Assembly (NCBI GenBank): GCA_004299485.1
Contig: SCQP01000016.1
Location: 62,001-126,000, forward strand
Direction: 5' to 3'
Length of the DNA stretch: 64,000 nucleotides
Origin: Acidobacteriota bacterium
GTDB lineage: Bacteria; Acidobacteriota; Terriglobia; Terriglobales; SCQP01
Shown here: piece after piece, positions 27,844 through 63,600 of the stretch
Position numbering within the stretch: position 1 is the first letter of the stretch
Layout of the letters: each line of letters opens with the position of its first letter
The notes under the pieces: model-generated
What the model was told of the DNA's origin: nothing
Database searches by the model: none
What the model saw: only the letters and a program-made list of their open reading frames with translations
Program-made: the position numbers and the translations under genes

Positions 27844-28514
27844 ATGGACCAGCGCCCCGCCATTAATCCCTGGTTGGTCGCCATCGCCATCGTGCTGCCC
27901 ATCACCGGCTGGCTGTCGAACCATATCGGCCGTAAGCGCCTGCTGCTCACCGTCGTCACCGGCTTTACCGTCTCCAGCGTCCTCTGCGGCCTCGCGCCCA
28001 ACCGCCCTTCCTGATTACCTGCCGCATTCTGCAGGGCACCACCGGCGGCGGCCTGCAGCCCCTCTCCCAGGCCGTGCTGCTGGAGGAATTTCCCCTGGAG
28101 CAACGCGGCAACACCATGGCCGCCCGGGGCATGGGCATCGTCGTCGCGCCGGCTATCTCCTCAGCCGCGCCTTCGATTCCCGTGGCGGCAGCTTGGAGGA
28201 GCCCTGAGCGCCAGCGGGCGGACCCTGCCGGGAATCGAAGCCCGCACTCCAAGCGACCATCGGGAGCGACCCGGGCTGTGCAGGAGGCGCTCGCACACAT
28301 GCAGGGGCTGCTCATCGGCCACGGCGTCAACCCTGCCGACGCGCAGCACATCGCCACCGGCCTGCTTTACGGAACCGTCCAGCAGCAGGCCGCCTACGCC
28401 AGCTACATCGACGTCCGTGCCTTCGGCATCATCTTCTTTGCCGGTATCCCCCTCCTCTGGCTCATGCGCAAACCCCGCACCGGTGCCAAGCCCGGCGCTG
28501 GCGCCGCCCACTGA
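27844..28514 (+). pseudogene. Decayed second emrB copy
   Basis: An opening ATG reads MDQRPAINPWLVAIAIV and then jumps to the helix-2 motif VLPITGWLSNHIGRKRLLL, so the first helix is deleted. A frameshift creates a stop at 28012-28014. In the next frame the match resumes (CRILQGTTGGGLQPLSQAVLLEEFP, GIVVAP), breaks into a dispersed repeat element at about 28181-28270, and resumes as an EmrB C-terminus (YGTVQQQAAYASYIDVRAFGIIFFAGIPLL). Most of the central region is lost. It probably arose by tandem duplication of emrB or from a diverged paralogue. Confidence 0.85.
28171..28270. repeat. Dispersed element copy E1, inside the emrB pseudogene
   Basis: From about 28184 to 28270 this matches the sequence at about 42932-43015 with only a few substitutions, and part of hemG (52357-52473) more distantly. 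Read in the hemG frame it is open and gives RQLGGALSASGRTLPG followed by SDHRE. A 12-bp perfect inverted repeat (CTTCGATTCCCG at 28171-28182 with CGGGAATCGAAG at 28229-28240) spans its left part. It interrupts the EmrB-like reading frame. Confidence 0.75.
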
Positions 28515-33070: not shown

Positions 33071-35605
33071 ATGCGCCGCTACTGGAACCTGTTCCGCCGC
33101 AACCGTCTCGTCCGCGACATCGCCGAGGAACTCGCCACCCACGCTGCCATGCTCGAAGAAGCCAACCGGTCCACGGGCGCGAATCGCCGCCTCGGCAACG
33201 ATCTCGCCCTGCGCGAGCGCACCCGCGCCGCCGATGTGCACGTCTGGCTCGACGAGCTGCTGCGCGATATCGGCTTCGCCCGCCGCTCCCTCTGGCGCGC
33301 CCGCGGCTTCGCCGCCGTCGCCGTGCTCACTCTCGCCCTCGGCATCGGCGCCACCACCGCCATGTTCAGCGTAGTCCGCACCGTGGTGCTCGATCCGCTG
33401 CCCTATCCTGGCGCCGCGCGCCTGGTGAGCGTGCGTATGTACGAATCCTGGCAGGGCAAGCGCCGCCTCATCGTAAATCTGCCCACACAAGTCCTGCAGG
33501 CGCTCAGCAGGAGCCGCGCCTTCACCAGCGTCGGTATCGTGGGCTACGACGACGACGCGGTCGTGGTCGACGGCACAGCGCGCGACGCTTACGTCTCGGC
33601 CGCTTCGCCGCGCCTGCTGGCAACCTTGCGCGTGCGGCCTGAAGTGGGGCACGGCTTCAGCGCAAGCGGGCAGGACGCTCTCGTCAGCGATCGCTTCTGG
33701 CACACACAGTTGGGCAGTTCGCGCGCAGTCATCGGCAGAACCATCCGCATTGGCCGCAGGCTCTACGCCATCGCCGGGGTGCTGCCACCCGGCAAGGCGT
33801 ACCCGCCGTACACGTCCGTCTGGATCGCGGGCACCCCCGGACCGGACGCGACCGGCCAGGTTATCGCGCGCCTACCGGACAGCGTGCCCTTGGCGCAAGC
33901 CCGATCACAAGCGCAGGCAGCCATCGCCGTCATCGCCCAGCGCCAGGCGCGCGCGCTTCATTCCTGGGGTGCAGACGGTCTGGCGCTCGTGCCGCCCATG
34001 GAGCAGCTCGCCCGGCCGCAGGCTCGCACCGCGCTTTGGATGCTCTTTGCCGCCGTCGTCTGCCTCTTGCTCATCGCCTGTGCCAACACTACGAACTTGT
34101 TGCTTGGCCGCGGCCTGGCGCGCCACCAGGAATTCGCGTTGCGGCGCGCCTTGGGCGCGGGCCGCCTGCGGCTGGCCTCGCTTCTTCTGGCCGAGGGCCT
34201 GTGGCTGGCGCTGGCGGGTGCAACAGCCGGGGCCGGGCTGGCGTGGCTGCTGCTCCGCCTGGCGCGACTGGGACCCGAAAACATTCCCCGTCTCGACGCC
34301 GTGCAGCTCGATCCAGCGACGTTAGGGTTTGCCGCCGCCGTGGGTCTCGCCGCCGGATTGATCTGCGCGCTGGCGCCGGCGCTGCGCTTCGCCCGCACGA
34401 GCGTCAGAGATTCACACACACAGCGCCTGCGCCAAGGGCTCGTGATCGCCGAAATCGCGCTCACACTTGTTCTGCTGACCGGCGGCACGCTTCTGGTCCG
34501 CAGCTTCAGCAATCTGCTCAACACCGACCCAGGTTTCACTCTGAGCCAGACGACCATCATCGGTCTCACCGCACCCAGCACGGCGGCGGAAAGCAAGCAT
34601 CTGGCCTGGCCGCGCCGCAGCCAGACCTTCCAGCGACTCCTGGCGCGAGTGCGCGCGCTCCCCGGTGTCACCGCGGCCACTTACACCGTGCACCTGCCCT
34701 TTACCCCCGAAAACAGCGCGTTTCTGCGCCTGCCCAGCACACCCGGCCAGAGCCACGCCGCCACGGGCATGATAGAGATCGGCCCACACTATTTTGCGGC
34801 GATGGGCATTCCCCTGCTCGCGGGCCGTTCGTTCTCGCCGGCAGAAGAGAGTCAATTCCCGGGCAAGTCGATGCCCGTGGTCGTGAACGCTGCTCTGGCG
34901 GCACAATTCTGGCCTGGCCAGCCACCTGCCTCCGTTCTCGGCCGAAGCCTTGCCCAAGGAGATGACTCCGACGTGATCATCGGCGTCGCCGGCAACACGC
35001 GCGACAACGACGATCTGGCCGCGGGCAGCCGGTCGCAGGTGTACTTCCCCTACTACGGCAATTTCGACGAGGTGGAGTTTCTCGTTCGCTCGCCGCTGCC
35101 GCCCGCCGCCATCGCACAGGCGCTCGAAGCGCTACTCCCAAGGGCGAGCGCCAATCTCGTTGCAAGCCAGCCCATCACCCTCAACGCGGCGCTCGCAGCC
35201 GCCTTGGCGCAGCCCAGGTTCCGCGCCCTGCTGCTGACGCTCTTCGCTCTCCTCGCCTGGCTGCTGGCGCTCGTCGGCCTCTATGGTGTGCTCGCCTTTC
35301 AGGTGCGCCAGCGCCGGCGCGAAATCGGGGTTCGCATGGCCCTCGGCGCCGACAGCCGCGCCGTCATCCGCATGGTGCTCGGCCAGAACCTGGCCGTGCT
35401 CGCCGCAGGGATCGCCGCCGGCTGGCTGCTGTGCTGGTTTCTGTCGCGCTACATCTCCAGCCTGCTGTTCGGCGTCAGCGCTTTCGACCCGCTGACCTGG
35501 CTGCTTGCCGGCGCGGCCCTGCTCGCCGCCGGTCTGCTCGCCAGCTTCCTTCCCGCACGCCGCGCCCTCCGCATCGACGCTGCCGAAACCCTCCGCTGCG
35601 AATAG
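33071..35605 (+). CDS. ADOP-type MacB/FtsX permease
   Basis: 844 aa. The N-terminus MRRYWNLFRRNRLVRDIAEELATHAAMLEEAN is typical of the acidobacterial duplicated orphan permease (ADOP) family. There are two MacB_PCD/FtsX halves: first helix near residue 80 (VAVLTLALGIGATTAMFSVV), central helices about 320-440, and final helices about 720-835 with RRREIGVRMALGADSRAVIRMVL. No ATPase gene is adjacent, as usual for these orphans. The substrate is unknown; homologous MacB-type proteins handle peptides, lipoproteins or macrolides. Confidence 0.9.
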   Translation: MRRYWNLFRRNRLVRDIAEELATHAAMLEEANRSTGANRRLGNDLALRERTRAADVHVWLDELLRDIGFARRSLWRARGFAAVAVLTLALGIGATTAMFSVVRTVVLDPLPYPGAARLVSVRMYESWQGKRRLIVNLPTQVLQALSRSRAFTSVGIVGYDDDAVVVDGTARDAYVSAASPRLLATLRVRPEVGHGFSASGQDALVSDRFWHTQLGSSRAVIGRTIRIGRRLYAIAGVLPPGKAYPPYTSVWIAGTPGPDATGQVIARLPDSVPLAQARSQAQAAIAVIAQRQARALHSWGADGLALVPPMEQLARPQARTALWMLFAAVVCLLLIACANTTNLLLGRGLARHQEFALRRALGAGRLRLASLLLAEGLWLALAGATAGAGLAWLLLRLARLGPENIPRLDAVQLDPATLGFAAAVGLAAGLICALAPALRFARTSVRDSHTQRLRQGLVIAEIALTLVLLTGGTLLVRSFSNLLNTDPGFTLSQTTIIGLTAPSTAAESKHLAWPRRSQTFQRLLARVRALPGVTAATYTVHLPFTPENSAFLRLPSTPGQSHAATGMIEIGPHYFAAMGIPLLAGRSFSPAEESQFPGKSMPVVVNAALAAQFWPGQPPASVLGRSLAQGDDSDVIIGVAGNTRDNDDLAAGSRSQVYFPYYGNFDEVEFLVRSPLPPAAIAQALEALLPRASANLVASQPITLNAALAAALAQPRFRALLLTLFALLAWLLALVGLYGVLAFQVRQRRREIGVRMALGADSRAVIRMVLGQNLAVLAAGIAAGWLLCWFLSRYISSLLFGVSAFDPLTWLLAGAALLAAGLLASFLPARRALRIDAAETLRCE

Positions 35606-35630: not shown

Positions 35631-36950
35631 ATGGCCACTGAACCGCTTGCTGCCGCGCCGCCCACCGGCATCGCCCCCTCCACCCCGCGCTGGCGTCTGG
35701 CAACGCGCATCGCCTTCCGCTTCTGCTTCGTCTACTTCGGCCTCTACATCCTGCTGACGCAGATGCTGACTTCGCTGCTCTTCGTCACCACCAACGACAA
35801 CGGTGCCTTCGAGCTGGACATGACCTCGCCCGCGCGCGCCGTTATCACTTGGATCGGGACCCACGTCTTTCACCTCGCTCACATGCTCACGCGCGAGACC
35901 GGCAGCGGCGATCGCCATTACGACTGGGTCGAGCTGGCCCTGATCTTCGTGCTGGCGCTGGCCGCCACGTTCGTCTGGTCCGTTCTCGACCGCAAGCGCG
36001 AACAGTACACCAAGCTGTTCCGCTGGTTCCGCGTAGTCGTGCGCTTCGCCCTGGGCGCCACGCTGCTCACCTACGGCATCGTCAAAATCTTTCCGCTGCA
36101 GATGTCCCCGCCTGGCTATCACCGCCTGCTCGAGCCCTACGGCAGCTTCTCGCCCATGGGTGTTCTCTGGGCTTCGATCGGCGCCGCGCCCGGCTACGAA
36201 TTTTTCGCCGGCTGCGCCGAATTTCTCGGTGGCGCGCTGCTGCTGTTTCCGCGCACCGCTATCCTCGGCGCCCTCATCGCGCTCGCCGACGCTACCCAGG
36301 TCTTCCTGCTCAACATGACCTACGACGTGCCGGTAAAGATCCTTTCCGGCACGCTGATTCTCCTCTCCGTGCTGGTGCTGGCCCCCGAAGCTCAGCGCCT
36401 CTGGGACGCCGTCGTGCGCAACCGTCCCGTCGCGCCCTCACGCCACTTCGAGCTCTGCCGCAGCCGCCGCGCCAACCGCATCGCTCTCGGCGTACAGGTC
36501 GTGATGGCACTGTTCTTGATTCTCGGCAACGTCTGGATGGGGGTTAAAACGTTCCAGTCCCGCCCGCCGCAATCGCCCCTCGCCGGCCTCTGGCAAGTCG
36601 AAACCTTCACCCTCAACAACCAGCCCCGCCCGCCGCTCGTCACCGATGCTCAGCGCTGGCAGCATGTGTTCTTTGTCTCCGCCAACCGCCTGATGGTGCA
36701 AACCATGCCCGGCAACTTCGAGAGCTACAAAGCCGCACTCAACACCGCCGCCGGCACCCTCGCCCTCACCCCACCCCAAGGCCCGCCCGCCCAGTTCACC
36801 TTCCGCCACCCCACACCCGACCAGCTCTTCCTCACCGGAACCCTGGACAACGCGCGCCTCCAGGTCTCCTTGCAGCTCATCCCCCGCTCCAGCTTCCGCC
36901 TCGTCAGCCGCGGCTTCCACTGGGTGCAAGACGCTCCCTTCGACCGCTAA
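35631..36950 (+). CDS. DoxX-like membrane protein with C-terminal periplasmic domain
   Basis: 439 aa from the ATG at 35631. Helices at about 24-45, 68-85, 105-125, 140-160, 200-265 and 300-320 are DoxX/DoxD-like (RFALGATLLTYGIVKIFPLQM, YEFFAGCAEFLGGALLLFPRTAILGALIA). The last 110 residues are soluble and beta-rich (GLWQVETFTLNNQPRPPLVTD), lipocalin-like in feel but not assignable. GATACT lies 6 nt before the ATG, indicating a leaderless message. Function is unknown; DoxX homologues are linked to quinone or thiosulfate redox. Confidence 0.75.
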   Translation: MATEPLAAAPPTGIAPSTPRWRLATRIAFRFCFVYFGLYILLTQMLTSLLFVTTNDNGAFELDMTSPARAVITWIGTHVFHLAHMLTRETGSGDRHYDWVELALIFVLALAATFVWSVLDRKREQYTKLFRWFRVVVRFALGATLLTYGIVKIFPLQMSPPGYHRLLEPYGSFSPMGVLWASIGAAPGYEFFAGCAEFLGGALLLFPRTAILGALIALADATQVFLLNMTYDVPVKILSGTLILLSVLVLAPEAQRLWDAVVRNRPVAPSRHFELCRSRRANRIALGVQVVMALFLILGNVWMGVKTFQSRPPQSPLAGLWQVETFTLNNQPRPPLVTDAQRWQHVFFVSANRLMVQTMPGNFESYKAALNTAAGTLALTPPQGPPAQFTFRHPTPDQLFLTGTLDNARLQVSLQLIPRSSFRLVSRGFHWVQDAPFDR

Positions 36951-42930: not shown

Positions 42931-43020
42931 TGGCGGCAGCTTGGAGGAGCCCTGAGCGTCAGCGGGCGGACCCTGCCGGGAACCGAAACCCGCACTCCAA
43001 GCGACCATCGGGACCAGGGC
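42931..43020. repeat. Dispersed element copy E2
   Basis: Nearly identical to E1 over about 85 nt; visible differences are GCC/GTC and ATCGAAG/ACCGAAA plus the ends. In the hemG frame it reads RQLGGALSVSGRTLPG then TRTPSDHRD. A little further right, at about 43045, GACCAACGG recurs (SDQRR), echoing the DQRE core of copies E3-E5. Confidence 0.75.
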
Positions 43021-43149
43021 AAATAGTGGCGAGCCACGGATCCCCGGGCGCCAGCGACCAACGGCGGCAACCAGGCCAAAAAGTGGCGCGCCAATTTCGG
43101 CCAAACTGGAAAAGCCACGGTTACGTATTCGCATTCAGGGAGTGAACTC

Positions 43150-51981: not shown

Positions 51982-52065
51982 TGAAATGACTCCTGATGGT
52001 TTAAAATAGTCCTGCGCGCGCATTATGGCATTCAGAGACTGCGCTCTTCCAGAGAAATCGTGTCC

Positions 52066-53490
52066 ATGACAACTAGTTCAGGACTCACAGCCATCATCGG
52101 TGGCGGTATCGCCGGCCTCAGCGCCGCCTGGACGCTGCAGCAGGCCGGCCGCGCGTGTGTGGTGCTGGAAGCGAGCGATCGCTGGGGTGGCGCCATCGCC
52201 AGCGAGCGTGTGGATGGATTTCTGCTCGAAGGCGGTCCCGATTCTTTCCTCGCCGGCAAGCCCGCTGCCGTGGAGCTTTGCCGCGAGCTCGGCCTGGAAG
52301 GCGAGCTCATCGGCACCGAGCCCCAACCCGGCGGTCCGCGCTTGCTCCATCGTGGCCATACGCGGCAACTTGGAGACGCCCTGATCGCCAGCGGGCGTCC
52401 GTTCCCGGGGAGCGACACTCGGCCACAGCCCGACCAACGGGAGGGCGGCTCCAACCAGAGGTGGCCGTGCCACTTGCAACCCCTCCCCGCCGGCTGGCGC
52501 ATGCTGGCGCCGACGCGCCTCGGCCCGGTCCTGCGCTCGCCCCTGTTCTCTCCTGCCGTCAAAGCCGCGGTCATCTGGCACTGGCCCCGCACCGCTGCGC
52601 CACCACGCGAGGATGAGACGGTCGCCGCCTATCTCGAGCGCCGCTTCGGTCGCCATGCTGGCCGCGCCTTCACGCAGATCATCGTGCAACCGCTTCTCGC
52701 CGGGGTTTATGGTGGCCGCGCCGATTGCCTTAGCGCCGTCCCACCCTCCGCGCCCGGCGATCGGCCCTCCGGTGCACCCATTTTCATGACCCTGCGCGGC
52801 GGCATGGGTACGCTGGTCGCCAAACTGGTCGAGCGCTTGCAGCCCTGCCTTCGCGCGCACTCCTGCGTCCAGGCGATCGCACGAAACGGCGCCGGTTTCC
52901 GTCTGGAACTGGAACAGGGCGACCCGCTCGACGCCTCCAGCCTCATCGTCGCCGCCCCCGCCTGGCGCGCTGCTACCCTATTGCGCGATTTCGATGCCGA
53001 ACTCGCGGCTCCACTGGCGTCCATCCCGTTCTCTTCATCGGTCAACGTCAATCTGGCCTATCGCACCGCCCCCGCGCTGCCGCCCGGCCACGGCTTTCTC
53101 GCCGGCGGCGATTCGGATCTCCAGGCCTGCACCTTCGCCCATCAGAAGTTTTCCGGCCGTGCCCCCGCCGGCGCCGCCCTCCTCCGGCTGTTCTACGGCG
53201 AAGCTCTGGCGGAAGCCGCCAACGCGCTGATCGAAGCCCACGCCCGCGCCGATGTTGCAGCCATCCTCGGCGTCACCCAGCCTCCGGATCTGGTCCGCAT
53301 TCGCGCTTGCCGTCGCGCTCTGCCGCAATACACCGTTGGCCATAACGAGCGCGTAAAGCGGCTGCTCGCCGCCCTGGAGCGATATCCCCGCCTGGCCCTC
53401 GCCGGCAATGCCTACGCTGGTGTCGGTGTGCCCGACTGCATCGCCTCCGGTGTTGCCGCTGCGGCCAGGATCACATCGGCGTTAGGATAG
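52066..53490 (+). CDS. hemG: Protoporphyrinogen oxidase with in-frame repeat insertion
   Basis: 474 aa from the ATG at 52066; a GTG at 52060 is an alternative. The FAD-binding dinucleotide motif IIGGGIAGLSAAW, followed by LEASDRWGG and FLLEGGPDSFLAGKP, is typical of oxygen-dependent HemG/HemY-type enzymes oxidising (copro)protoporphyrinogen. The C-terminal FAD segment is ALAGNAYAGVGVPDCIASG. In homologues a short RRGxLxPLPxGW stretch follows residue 98; here about 39 extra residues (RQLGDALIASGRPFPG ... DQREGG) separate LLHRG from LQPLPAGW. The extra block matches the dispersed element and keeps frame. Confidence 0.88.
   Translation: MTTSSGLTAIIGGGIAGLSAAWTLQQAGRACVVLEASDRWGGAIASERVDGFLLEGGPDSFLAGKPAAVELCRELGLEGELIGTEPQPGGPRLLHRGHTRQLGDALIASGRPFPGSDTRPQPDQREGGSNQRWPCHLQPLPAGWRMLAPTRLGPVLRSPLFSPAVKAAVIWHWPRTAAPPREDETVAAYLERRFGRHAGRAFTQIIVQPLLAGVYGGRADCLSAVPPSAPGDRPSGAPIFMTLRGGMGTLVAKLVERLQPCLRAHSCVQAIARNGAGFRLELEQGDPLDASSLIVAAPAWRAATLLRDFDAELAAPLASIPFSSSVNVNLAYRTAPALPPGHGFLAGGDSDLQACTFAHQKFSGRAPAGAALLRLFYGEALAEAANALIEAHARADVAAILGVTQPPDLVRIRACRRALPQYTVGHNERVKRLLAALERYPRLALAGNAYAGVGVPDCIASGVAAAARITSALG
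52357..52473. repeat. Dispersed element copy E3, in frame inside hemG
   Basis: 117 nt, a multiple of three. The left half aligns with E1/E2 (GCGGCA-CTTGGAG, CGCCAGCGGGCG, CCGGG). The right half contains CGACCAACGGGAGG, the core of E4/E5. E3 therefore joins the two motif types seen separately elsewhere. In frame it reads RQLGDALIASGRPFPG followed by DQREGG. Confidence 0.75.
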
Positions 53491-60616: not shown

Positions 60617-63600
60617 CTAAAACAGGATTTCCGCCACCAACTGGATTGCGCGCGGGCCGCCGTCCCCGAAGTAGGGATTGAACACGTCCGGCGTGCTCGT
60701 GAGCCGGTAGCCGGAGCCGAAAATGGTCGACGGCGAGGCGAAGTTGGGGTGATTGAAGGCATTGAACAGTTCCGCCCGCAGCCGCAGCGTGCGGTCGCCG
60801 GCAAACGCCGTGGTCTTCACCAGCGAGAGATCGAAGTTGTTGCGCCCCGGCCCGTAGAAGGTATTGCGCCCTAGATCGCCGTACGTCCCCGGCGCGGGCA
60901 GCGCGAACGCCGCCGGGTTCAGATACGACCCGGTCGGATTGAACGGCGCCTTCGGATCGCCCACCAGCTTGGGCCGGTCGCGGAACTCGCCCGTTCCCGA
61001 GTTATCGCTCGCCAGCATCACCGTAAACGGTGATCCCGACCCAAACGTCGTGATGCCGTTGACCTGCCAGCCCGATAGCACCGTCCGCAACGCCCCCGGT
61101 CCTGCCGTGAACGCGGGCAGAAGATACGCGTACGTCAGGCTCAGGTGTTGCCGCTGGTCGAAATTCGACGGCCCGTAATCGAGCCCCAGGTTGTGGCTGT
61201 CCTGCGGCAGCCCGCCGCTGTAGCCGCCCGCGCCCGAGCTGTCGTCGAGCGATTTCGCCCAGGTGTAGGACACCTGCACATGCACGCCCGCGAAGCCGTT
61301 CAGCCGCGACGAGACCTGCAGGCTGTTGTAATTCGAGTGCGCCGCCGCCGTCAGGATATTGATCACGCGAAAGTCCGGATACGTCGCTGCAAACGGCCGC
61401 CGCGCCTGCTCCTCCGCCGTGCCCGCCGCGCCCGGCGTGGGTTGGTTGGCATCCAGCACCACTGGCAGCCGTGTCCCGCGGCTGCCGTAGTAGGCGACGG
61501 TCAGCGAATTGCCGGTTCCGACGGCCTGCTCCAGCGCTACGTGGTAGACCTGCACGCGCGGGTCAGGAAAATTTTGCTCGACCCCAAACACATCAAACGG
61601 CGGCTGCGCCACCGCGCCGCCAAAAATAGCGACGCCCGGCCCAAAGGGAATCGGCGCCGCCGGGGTCACCGAAAAAATCGCGCTCGACCCAATCGGGTTA
61701 TACACTGGCCCCGCCACCAGCGAGTTCGAAGTCGAGTCCTGCATGTATTGGTCCAGCGCCGCCGGATCAAAATACAATCCCCATCCCGCCCGCCAGATGC
61801 GCCCACCGCGTCCATGCACCGCCACCGCCGCGCGCGGGGAAAAATCCCAGGCGTTCGGCTGATACAGCGTCGCCAGCCCGCTCGCACCCACCGGCACCAG
61901 CCCCGCGCTGGGCAGGAAGTTGCTCAAATGCCCCTCGGTGACATACGGCACCCCGAAGCGGTCATAGCGCACCCCTGCGGTAACCTGCACCGCCCGGCTG
62001 AGCTGCCACTGATCCTGCGCGAACGCCCCCCAGCGCTTTTGCCGCATGTAGCGCTGCCCGTTGCCGCGCGCAATCGCGGTCGCCCCCGGCGCCGGCAGCC
62101 CCGCCAGCAGATCCACCAGCGAGGCAGTGCCAAAATTCTGCGAGAGCGTATCCCCGAGCTGCGACCCGTTGAACACCAGTAGCCCGCGGAAGCCGTTGTC
62201 CACGAACGCGTTCTCCTGAATCGCCGTGTATTCGCCCCCGAAGCTCCACTGCTGCCCGCCCGCCAGGTGCTGCGCGCTCGCCGCAAAGTCGTACACGTCG
62301 CTCACCCGTCCGCGCGGCAGCCCCGTCGAAGCGCCCAGGTTCTCGTAAAATCCCGGCGCGATGTCGATCTCCGGCAGCCCGCTGTCGCGCCCCGAGGCGC
62401 CGGTGTTCAGTCCAAGGCTCGCGGGGTTGAATCCCGCATCGCCCGGCGCCGTGGTCTCGAAAAAGCGCGAGTACCCCGCCCGCGCGTGTTCCGTCCAGGC
62501 GCCGCCGTCGGCCCGCGTCGCCTCCAGGGACAGCAGTTGCACCCGCGTCGGCGACACCACGCTATACGCCGGCAGCCGCGATCCGCTCGTCTCGCCCAGG
62601 TGCCCTTGCGGAAACGTCTGTCCGTTGTCGCCCAAAATATAGGTCGCCGCCAGCTTCGTATGCACACCCACCGCGTGGTCACCCTTGAGCACCATGGTGT
62701 TGCCGTTGTTCAGCCCCAGCACGGAAAAACTCAGCGGTCCTGTCCCCAGCCCCGCCGGATACTGCTTCAGGATCGTCAGCGCCAGCGGATTCACGCTCCG
62801 TCCCGACTGCTGCACCAGCGCGCTCGCCGTCGCGATCTCGCCCGCCGTCGGCAGCCGCGACGCGTACGTCACCCCCACTGCCTCCCGCTGCGCCTCCACC
62901 GACGCAAACCCAAACCCGCCGATGCCCGGCAGCGGCCCGCCCACGGTAAATCCAAACTGGTTATTCCGGAACGCCTGCCGTGGCCGGCCGAAGAAGTTGT
63001 TATAGAAGTTATTGGCCGCCAGTTTGTCGTTGTCGAAGTACTCAAACAGTGACCCGTGCAGTTGCGCCGTACCCGACCGCAGCGTCGTGGTCAGCACCGC
63101 GCCCGAAGGCGTGTACACCGCCCCGGGGTTGGTGACCACGTGAATCTGATCCACCGCCCCCAGCGGAATCAGCACCGCCGGTGCCCCAAACGCCCCGCCC
63201 TGCCCGATCGCCTCCTGCTGCCGGAACGGATCCAGGTCATTGGTCCCGCTTACCAGGTAAGTGTTGTACTCCGACCGGTTCCCGTTCACCGAAAACGATC
63301 CCGCCGTCCCACCCGTCGCCCCCGTCCCCGGCACCAGCGTGTCCAGCTCGCTCGCCGCCTGCCCCCGCAGCGGCAGCGTATTTACTTGCTCGGTATGCCC
63401 GCTCGCCCCCGCCGCCGCCGCGACCGCATGTGCCACTTCCACCCGCTGTTGGTGCACGCCCCAGATGACGGTCAGCGTGTCCCCCGCCCGCAGCGTCAGC
63501 GCCGCCGACCCCAGCGGCTTCGCCCCCGCCCGCGCCGCCTCCAGCGTCCACACCCCCGCCGTCAACTCGACCTGAAACGCCCCATCGGCCGCGGTCACTG

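Follow-up and report, generated by a model that had tools for sequence, protein, structure and literature searches.

A frame-neutral repeat within the hemG gene of an acidobacterium, very probably tolerated as a passenger loop

The protoporphyrinogen oxidase gene hemG of an apparent member of the Acidobacteriota contains, in frame, a complete copy of a short repeat that is dispersed through the genome. It is very likely that this repeat is a non-autonomous mobile element, neutral to the reading frame, that inserted in hemG and is tolerated there as a passenger loop. The gene lies in a stretch of 64,000 nucleotides of contig SCQP01000016.1 (the window, positions 62,001 to 126,000; Table 1). The in-frame insertion is no peculiarity of hemG and belongs to a genome-wide pattern that includes about 20 other genic copies.

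By sequence and fold the host protein is assigned to the HemG/HemY type of protoporphyrinogen oxidase, with proto- or coproporphyrinogen both possible as substrate. The Pfam profile PF01593 covers residues 17-471, the score against TIGR00562 is 178 bits (cut-off 97.85) and the nearest solved folds are the PPO/CgoX entries 9a78, 2ivd and 3i6d (Myxococcus and Bacillus PPO and a CgoX model). A first-pass annotation of the window had described a mobile-looking block of 117 nt and 39 residues that began at position 52357. The insertion is indeed clean and in frame and the block is a full copy of a dispersed repeat, but it measures 114 bp and encodes 38 residues (TRQLGDAL...RWPCH). These lie between HRGH and LQPLPAGW in this HemG alone: none of 28 aligned acidobacterial homologues from the same order, congeners included, carries them, which rules out an ancestral HemG domain. 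The empty site was found in two congeners (G001 and G003) and in another member of the family (G010), where the flanks are contiguous in the DNA and query residues ~100 and 139 abut.

Table 1. Positions of hemG, its insert and related repeat copies in the window
Feature	Position	Strand	Remarks
hemG/hemY-type protoporphyrinogen (or coproporphyrinogen) oxidase with insert, assigned by sequence and fold	52060..53490	+	476 aa, intact frame through the block
Complete subfamily-B repeat in hemG	52360..52473	+ (the gene's strand), in frame	114 bp = 38 codons; ends identical in 11 other B copies
3'-terminal hairpin GTGGC-CGT-GCCAC, right end of the hemG element	52461..52473	+	Retained in nearly all copies
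C four bases upstream of the hemG element (-4)	52356	+	Strong target-side base
Subfamily-A copy	28183..28276	+	Bases 1-94 of 111, 3' end lost; in degraded MFS-transporter gene
Subfamily-A copy	42931..43037	+	107 bp, 4-bp deletion; intergenic

The first-pass annotation had considered the insertion place to be tight in homologues, and structure models agree: in the insert-free orthologue of a congener, strands 91-94 and 97-100 are joined by a turn of two residues. In the AlphaFold model of HemG (pLDDT 85.8) the insert leaves the fold between strands 94-98 and 137-141 with pLDDT mostly below 50 (residues 101-104 and 113-133). As to whether it forms a surface loop, it is predicted to be disordered and to emerge from the tight turn of this beta-hairpin, the remaining enzyme being confidently modelled. 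The frame is open, the FAD motif and the residues invariant in the alignment are all retained, and a search of the genome for HemG-like genes (a class that leaves out other oxidase types such as HemJ) found no second one. From the intact frame and the conserved enzyme we infer that HemG is still functional and that, as had been proposed, the cell tolerates the block as an internal peptide. It seems unlikely that HemG has already lost its activity and is turning into a pseudogene in which the insert merely sits. The insert does lie close to where the substrate-binding region begins, HemG function is a prediction from sequence and model, and the A copy at 28183 sits in a broken gene; against this stand the retained motif, frame and invariant residues, the lack of a second HemG-like gene, and a frame that is still intact after five substitutions in the insert since the consensus. 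All five of these differences from the subfamily-B consensus (95.6% identity) are nonsynonymous, as expected if the peptide is unconstrained, although five changes prove little. That the insert represents a selected functional domain of HemG we regard as highly improbable: it has persisted, but the repeat is mostly intergenic, its genic copies are read in three frames, and the insert is predicted to be disordered and has changed at nonsynonymous positions only.

The repeat is present in ~130-150 copies in the 3.3-Mb genome. Copies were counted by searches and in stretches fetched around the hits; in these sampled regions (458 kb) we located 149 copies and fragments, of which 128 are full length (110 of subfamily A, 12 of B and 6 of C). 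The insert peptide has 142 matches in the genome and, together with the window and genome searches, these rule out chance similarity of the block to the other copies. Sequence patterns for subfamily A detected 132 3' ends and 116 5' ends genome-wide, an excess of 5'-truncated copies, and reversed control patterns gave no hits. The two window matches described by the first-pass annotation are real (28185-28266, 73%, E 1e-8; 42933-43013, 73%, E 3e-8) and do lie outside intact genes, but they belong to the sister subfamily A and are not the same sequence as the hemG block. The first sits at the break of a fragmented MFS-transporter gene (27844-28514), and its lost end and the damage to that gene may go back to one deletion. 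Subfamily B is minor, with about a dozen full copies elsewhere in the genome that are 86-94% identical to the one in hemG.

Subfamily A measures 111 bp in 104 of 110 full copies, B 114 bp in 10 of 12, and C, which is B plus an extra hairpin, 153 bp in five of six (the sixth has 150). In congeners B has 114 bp and C 153 bp, and an A-like form of 108 bp is present (G004); two genomes of another genus of the family (G006 and G011) carry a 108-bp form. Taken together, the five subfamilies in genus and family (108, 108, 111, 114 and 153 bp) all have lengths divisible by three, for which the chance would be ~0.004 if they were independent and the evidence is weaker since they are related. The repeat was not found in relatives of the order outside the family, and in a sample of 396 genomes of the phylum (two candidates scored per genome) its own genome was the sole match. 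Plasmids and viral contigs gave no repeat at the sensitivity used (an exact 47-base match in the viral scan). A scan of the window at Rfam gathering thresholds returned a tRNA only and matched the repeat to no known Rfam family.

The left end of the element is sharp and reads [T/A/C]GGCGGCAG... or [A/T/C]CGCGGCAAC..., and the right end is a small hairpin, GTGGC-n-GCCAC. In G006 and G011 this hairpin reads GCGGC-TGA-GCCGC, the paired bases being altered on both sides. A C four bases upstream of the element, present in 118 of the 128 full copies (92%), is the sole strong external signal. Among the 128 copies we found no excess of target duplications beyond k=4 (3 seen, 0.7 expected) and none beyond chance at 5 or more bases, and the element ends do not form long terminal inverted repeats. 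Where a B copy has entered an A copy (contig C14:136674-136806), the insertion is likewise a clean one of 114 bp without target duplication. Several other properties of the element were considered and set aside. That the complete element folds with unusual strength is unsupported for A (z-scores 0.32/0.55) and has weak support for B (-1.68/-1.59). Selection for few stops is likewise unsupported, as one stop occurs in six frames against 1.5-1.9 expected and low stop density is usual at this base composition, so that open frames alone show nothing. The evidence that the TGA in one of the sense frames is under selection is weak, about one third of all A copies lacking it.

The copies in genes are described on the basis of gene calls, not of a curated annotation; the calls were made by a codon-usage program of our own that was trained on the fetched stretches. 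Only 29 of the 128 full copies lie within called genes when the site is considered empty, against 71% of random points (binomial p ~5e-30). The 23 genic copies with strong gene calls are all at the exact subfamily length and cause no frame shift, compared with 9 of the other 105 copies that deviate from it. Twenty of the 23 are in sense and three in antisense orientation, whereas copies between tandem genes divide 28 to 34 (p=0.0005). The sense copies are spread over three frames (6, 9 and 5 copies), which argues that no particular peptide is selected or conserved. In-frame stops are kept in three copies, which lie 14, 17 and 44 residues from the C-terminal end of the host, and the three antisense copies are all within 35 residues of a terminus. 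In family A the sense peptides are more hydrophilic than the antisense ones. Hosts that Pfam and NCBIfam profiles confirm as real genes are, besides HemG, an ADOP permease, a FadD-like ligase, a GT2-GtrA protein, an M50 peptidase, an FkbM methyltransferase, a MerA-type reductase, EgtD, ThiE, an M24 peptidase, a HycI-type protease and a secretin (near its N-terminus). The EgtD site is empty in 12 relatives, and congeners have genic copies of their own, two of the hosts being genes of 1172 and 867 aa. One gene of ~1016 aa when empty (contig C12:33000-38000) contains two A copies in two different frames (34264-34374 and 36362-36472). On the same contig (62851-62964) a B copy lies antisense and in frame in rsmG/gidB, ~65 residues from its start; the RsmG score is below the cut-off and the gene may be damaged.

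These data lead us to propose that insertion is random or weakly targeted throughout the genome and that selection would then purge the harmful copies, leaving mostly intergenic ones and tolerated sense-strand loops. Genic copies would survive because the frame is kept and because sense reading gives hydrophilic loops. In hemG, a short non-autonomous repeat would have entered after the lineage split from its congeners, joining without target duplication, in the orientation of the gene and one codon before LQPLPAGW. Since the length of the element is exactly divisible by three and the frame used has no stop, the gene would have stayed open and gained a hydrophilic disordered loop of 38 residues, probably a passenger sequence without selected function.

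The orientation of the copies gives a further indication of how they may move. Neighbouring copies are on the same strand in 108 cases and on opposite strands in 24. Their orientation is correlated with the GC skew of the surroundings (r = -0.58, Fisher p = 9e-8), used here as a proxy for replication direction, but not with the strand of the genes (r = 0.06). If skew reflects the direction of replication as it usually does, the element in reverse reading, which begins GTGGC, would lie on the lagging-strand template. Single-strand transposons of the IS200/IS605 group prefer the lagging strand and REP sequences have a GT[AG]G foot (PMC6006769). We tentatively consider that an HUH enzyme (Y1 or TnpA-REP-like) could transfer the element in single-stranded form into the lagging-strand template at the replication fork. 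Such an enzyme would be consistent with the GTGG at the foot of the hairpin where the reversed element starts, with the C at -4 and the lack of target duplication, with the clean nested insertion, and with an orientation that neighbours share and that follows skew. It is weakened by the length of the element (108-153 bp against 20-40 bp for REPs), by a leading strand taken from skew, and by the search for the enzyme itself: this genome, G001 and G004, all of which hold the repeat, give no match to the Y1 transposase profile PF01797, and the repeat does not flank the Y1 genes of G002, G003, G006 and G011. Copying through RNA, retroposon-like from the 3' hairpin and giving 5'-truncated copies, appears improbable. 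Partial copies without the 5' end do outnumber those without the 3' end, in line with the counts of ends for subfamily A, but the excess is modest, deletion could explain it, and the reverse transcriptase profile RVT_1 has no match in this genome, G001, G003 or G004. As a resident mobiliser, neither enzyme was found beside or together with the repeat; with the genome assembled in 22 contigs, such a gene may have escaped the assembly if it is itself repeated.

Among known systems the family is closest in behaviour to the Rickettsia palindromic elements (RPEs), dispersed repeats of ~100-150 bp, many of which lie in frame in unrelated metabolic genes and add a peptide (PMC10969869, PMC3733652). 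Here too, dispersed repeats are found in frame in several unrelated genes. The phylum and apparently the sequence are different, however, the acidobacterial copies are mostly intergenic and use three sense frames where RPEs have one conserved peptide, and a small terminal hairpin takes the place of the long palindrome. Judged by these descriptions, the acidobacterial repeat appears to work like RPEs while being an unrelated family. Frame-preserving REPs have also been reported within genes (PMC6006769, PMC3733652). With REP/BIME sequences and their TnpA-REP (RAYT) enzymes the repeat shares high copy number, the lack of target duplication and a terminal hairpin footed by GTGG in reverse reading, but it is 3-7 times longer, is not palindromic overall, bears this hairpin at one end only and has no Y1 gene in its genome. 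Intragenic MITEs (ERIC and RU-1/2/3 of enterobacteria, QMITE1 of Coxiella) sometimes form in-frame gene fusions (PMC2759123, PMC10969869). Our repeat is likewise short, non-autonomous and at times in frame with genes, but its ends lack inverted repeats that span them and it does not duplicate its target. Non-autonomous elements derived from IS200/IS605 resemble it in the absence of target duplication, in the terminal hairpin and in an orientation tied to the replication strand (here by the GC-skew proxy); they differ in recognizing a motif of 4-5 nt instead of one fixed base, and in the Y1 enzyme. The family therefore fails the defining features of RPEs (conserved peptide, palindrome), of MITEs (terminal inverted repeats, target duplication) and of REPs (size, Y1). 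In the literature searched, whose coverage is partial, we came across no description of a comparable family from Acidobacteriota.

The best-known cases of selfish DNA that lies in frame within protein genes come from Rickettsia and are usually explained by reduced genomes and weak selection. Here it occurs in apparent Acidobacteriota with genomes of 3.3 Mb, in more than 100 copies and in five subfamily lengths divisible by three, and such repeats can apparently pass through coding genes without doing harm. As HemG and EgtD are each available in forms with and without the insert, it could be tested directly how proteins acquire loops from mobile DNA and whether mobile elements adapt to harmless translation. 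The data also raise the question of which enzyme moves a repeat without target duplication, with a C at -4 and in replication-strand orientation, in a genome with no detectable Y1 transposase or reverse transcriptase. We may speculate that the family is moved by an unrecognised enzyme acting on one replication strand, that its subfamilies came to differ in length only by multiples of three bases, and that it is coding-neutral selfish DNA from which enzymes keep receiving disordered loops. Among both B- and A-like copies there are long forms with an extra hairpin of ~40 nt at the same internal place (loci L220:3983-4135 and L225:3515-3556, and contig C2:63932-64083), suggesting a modular or exchanged segment.
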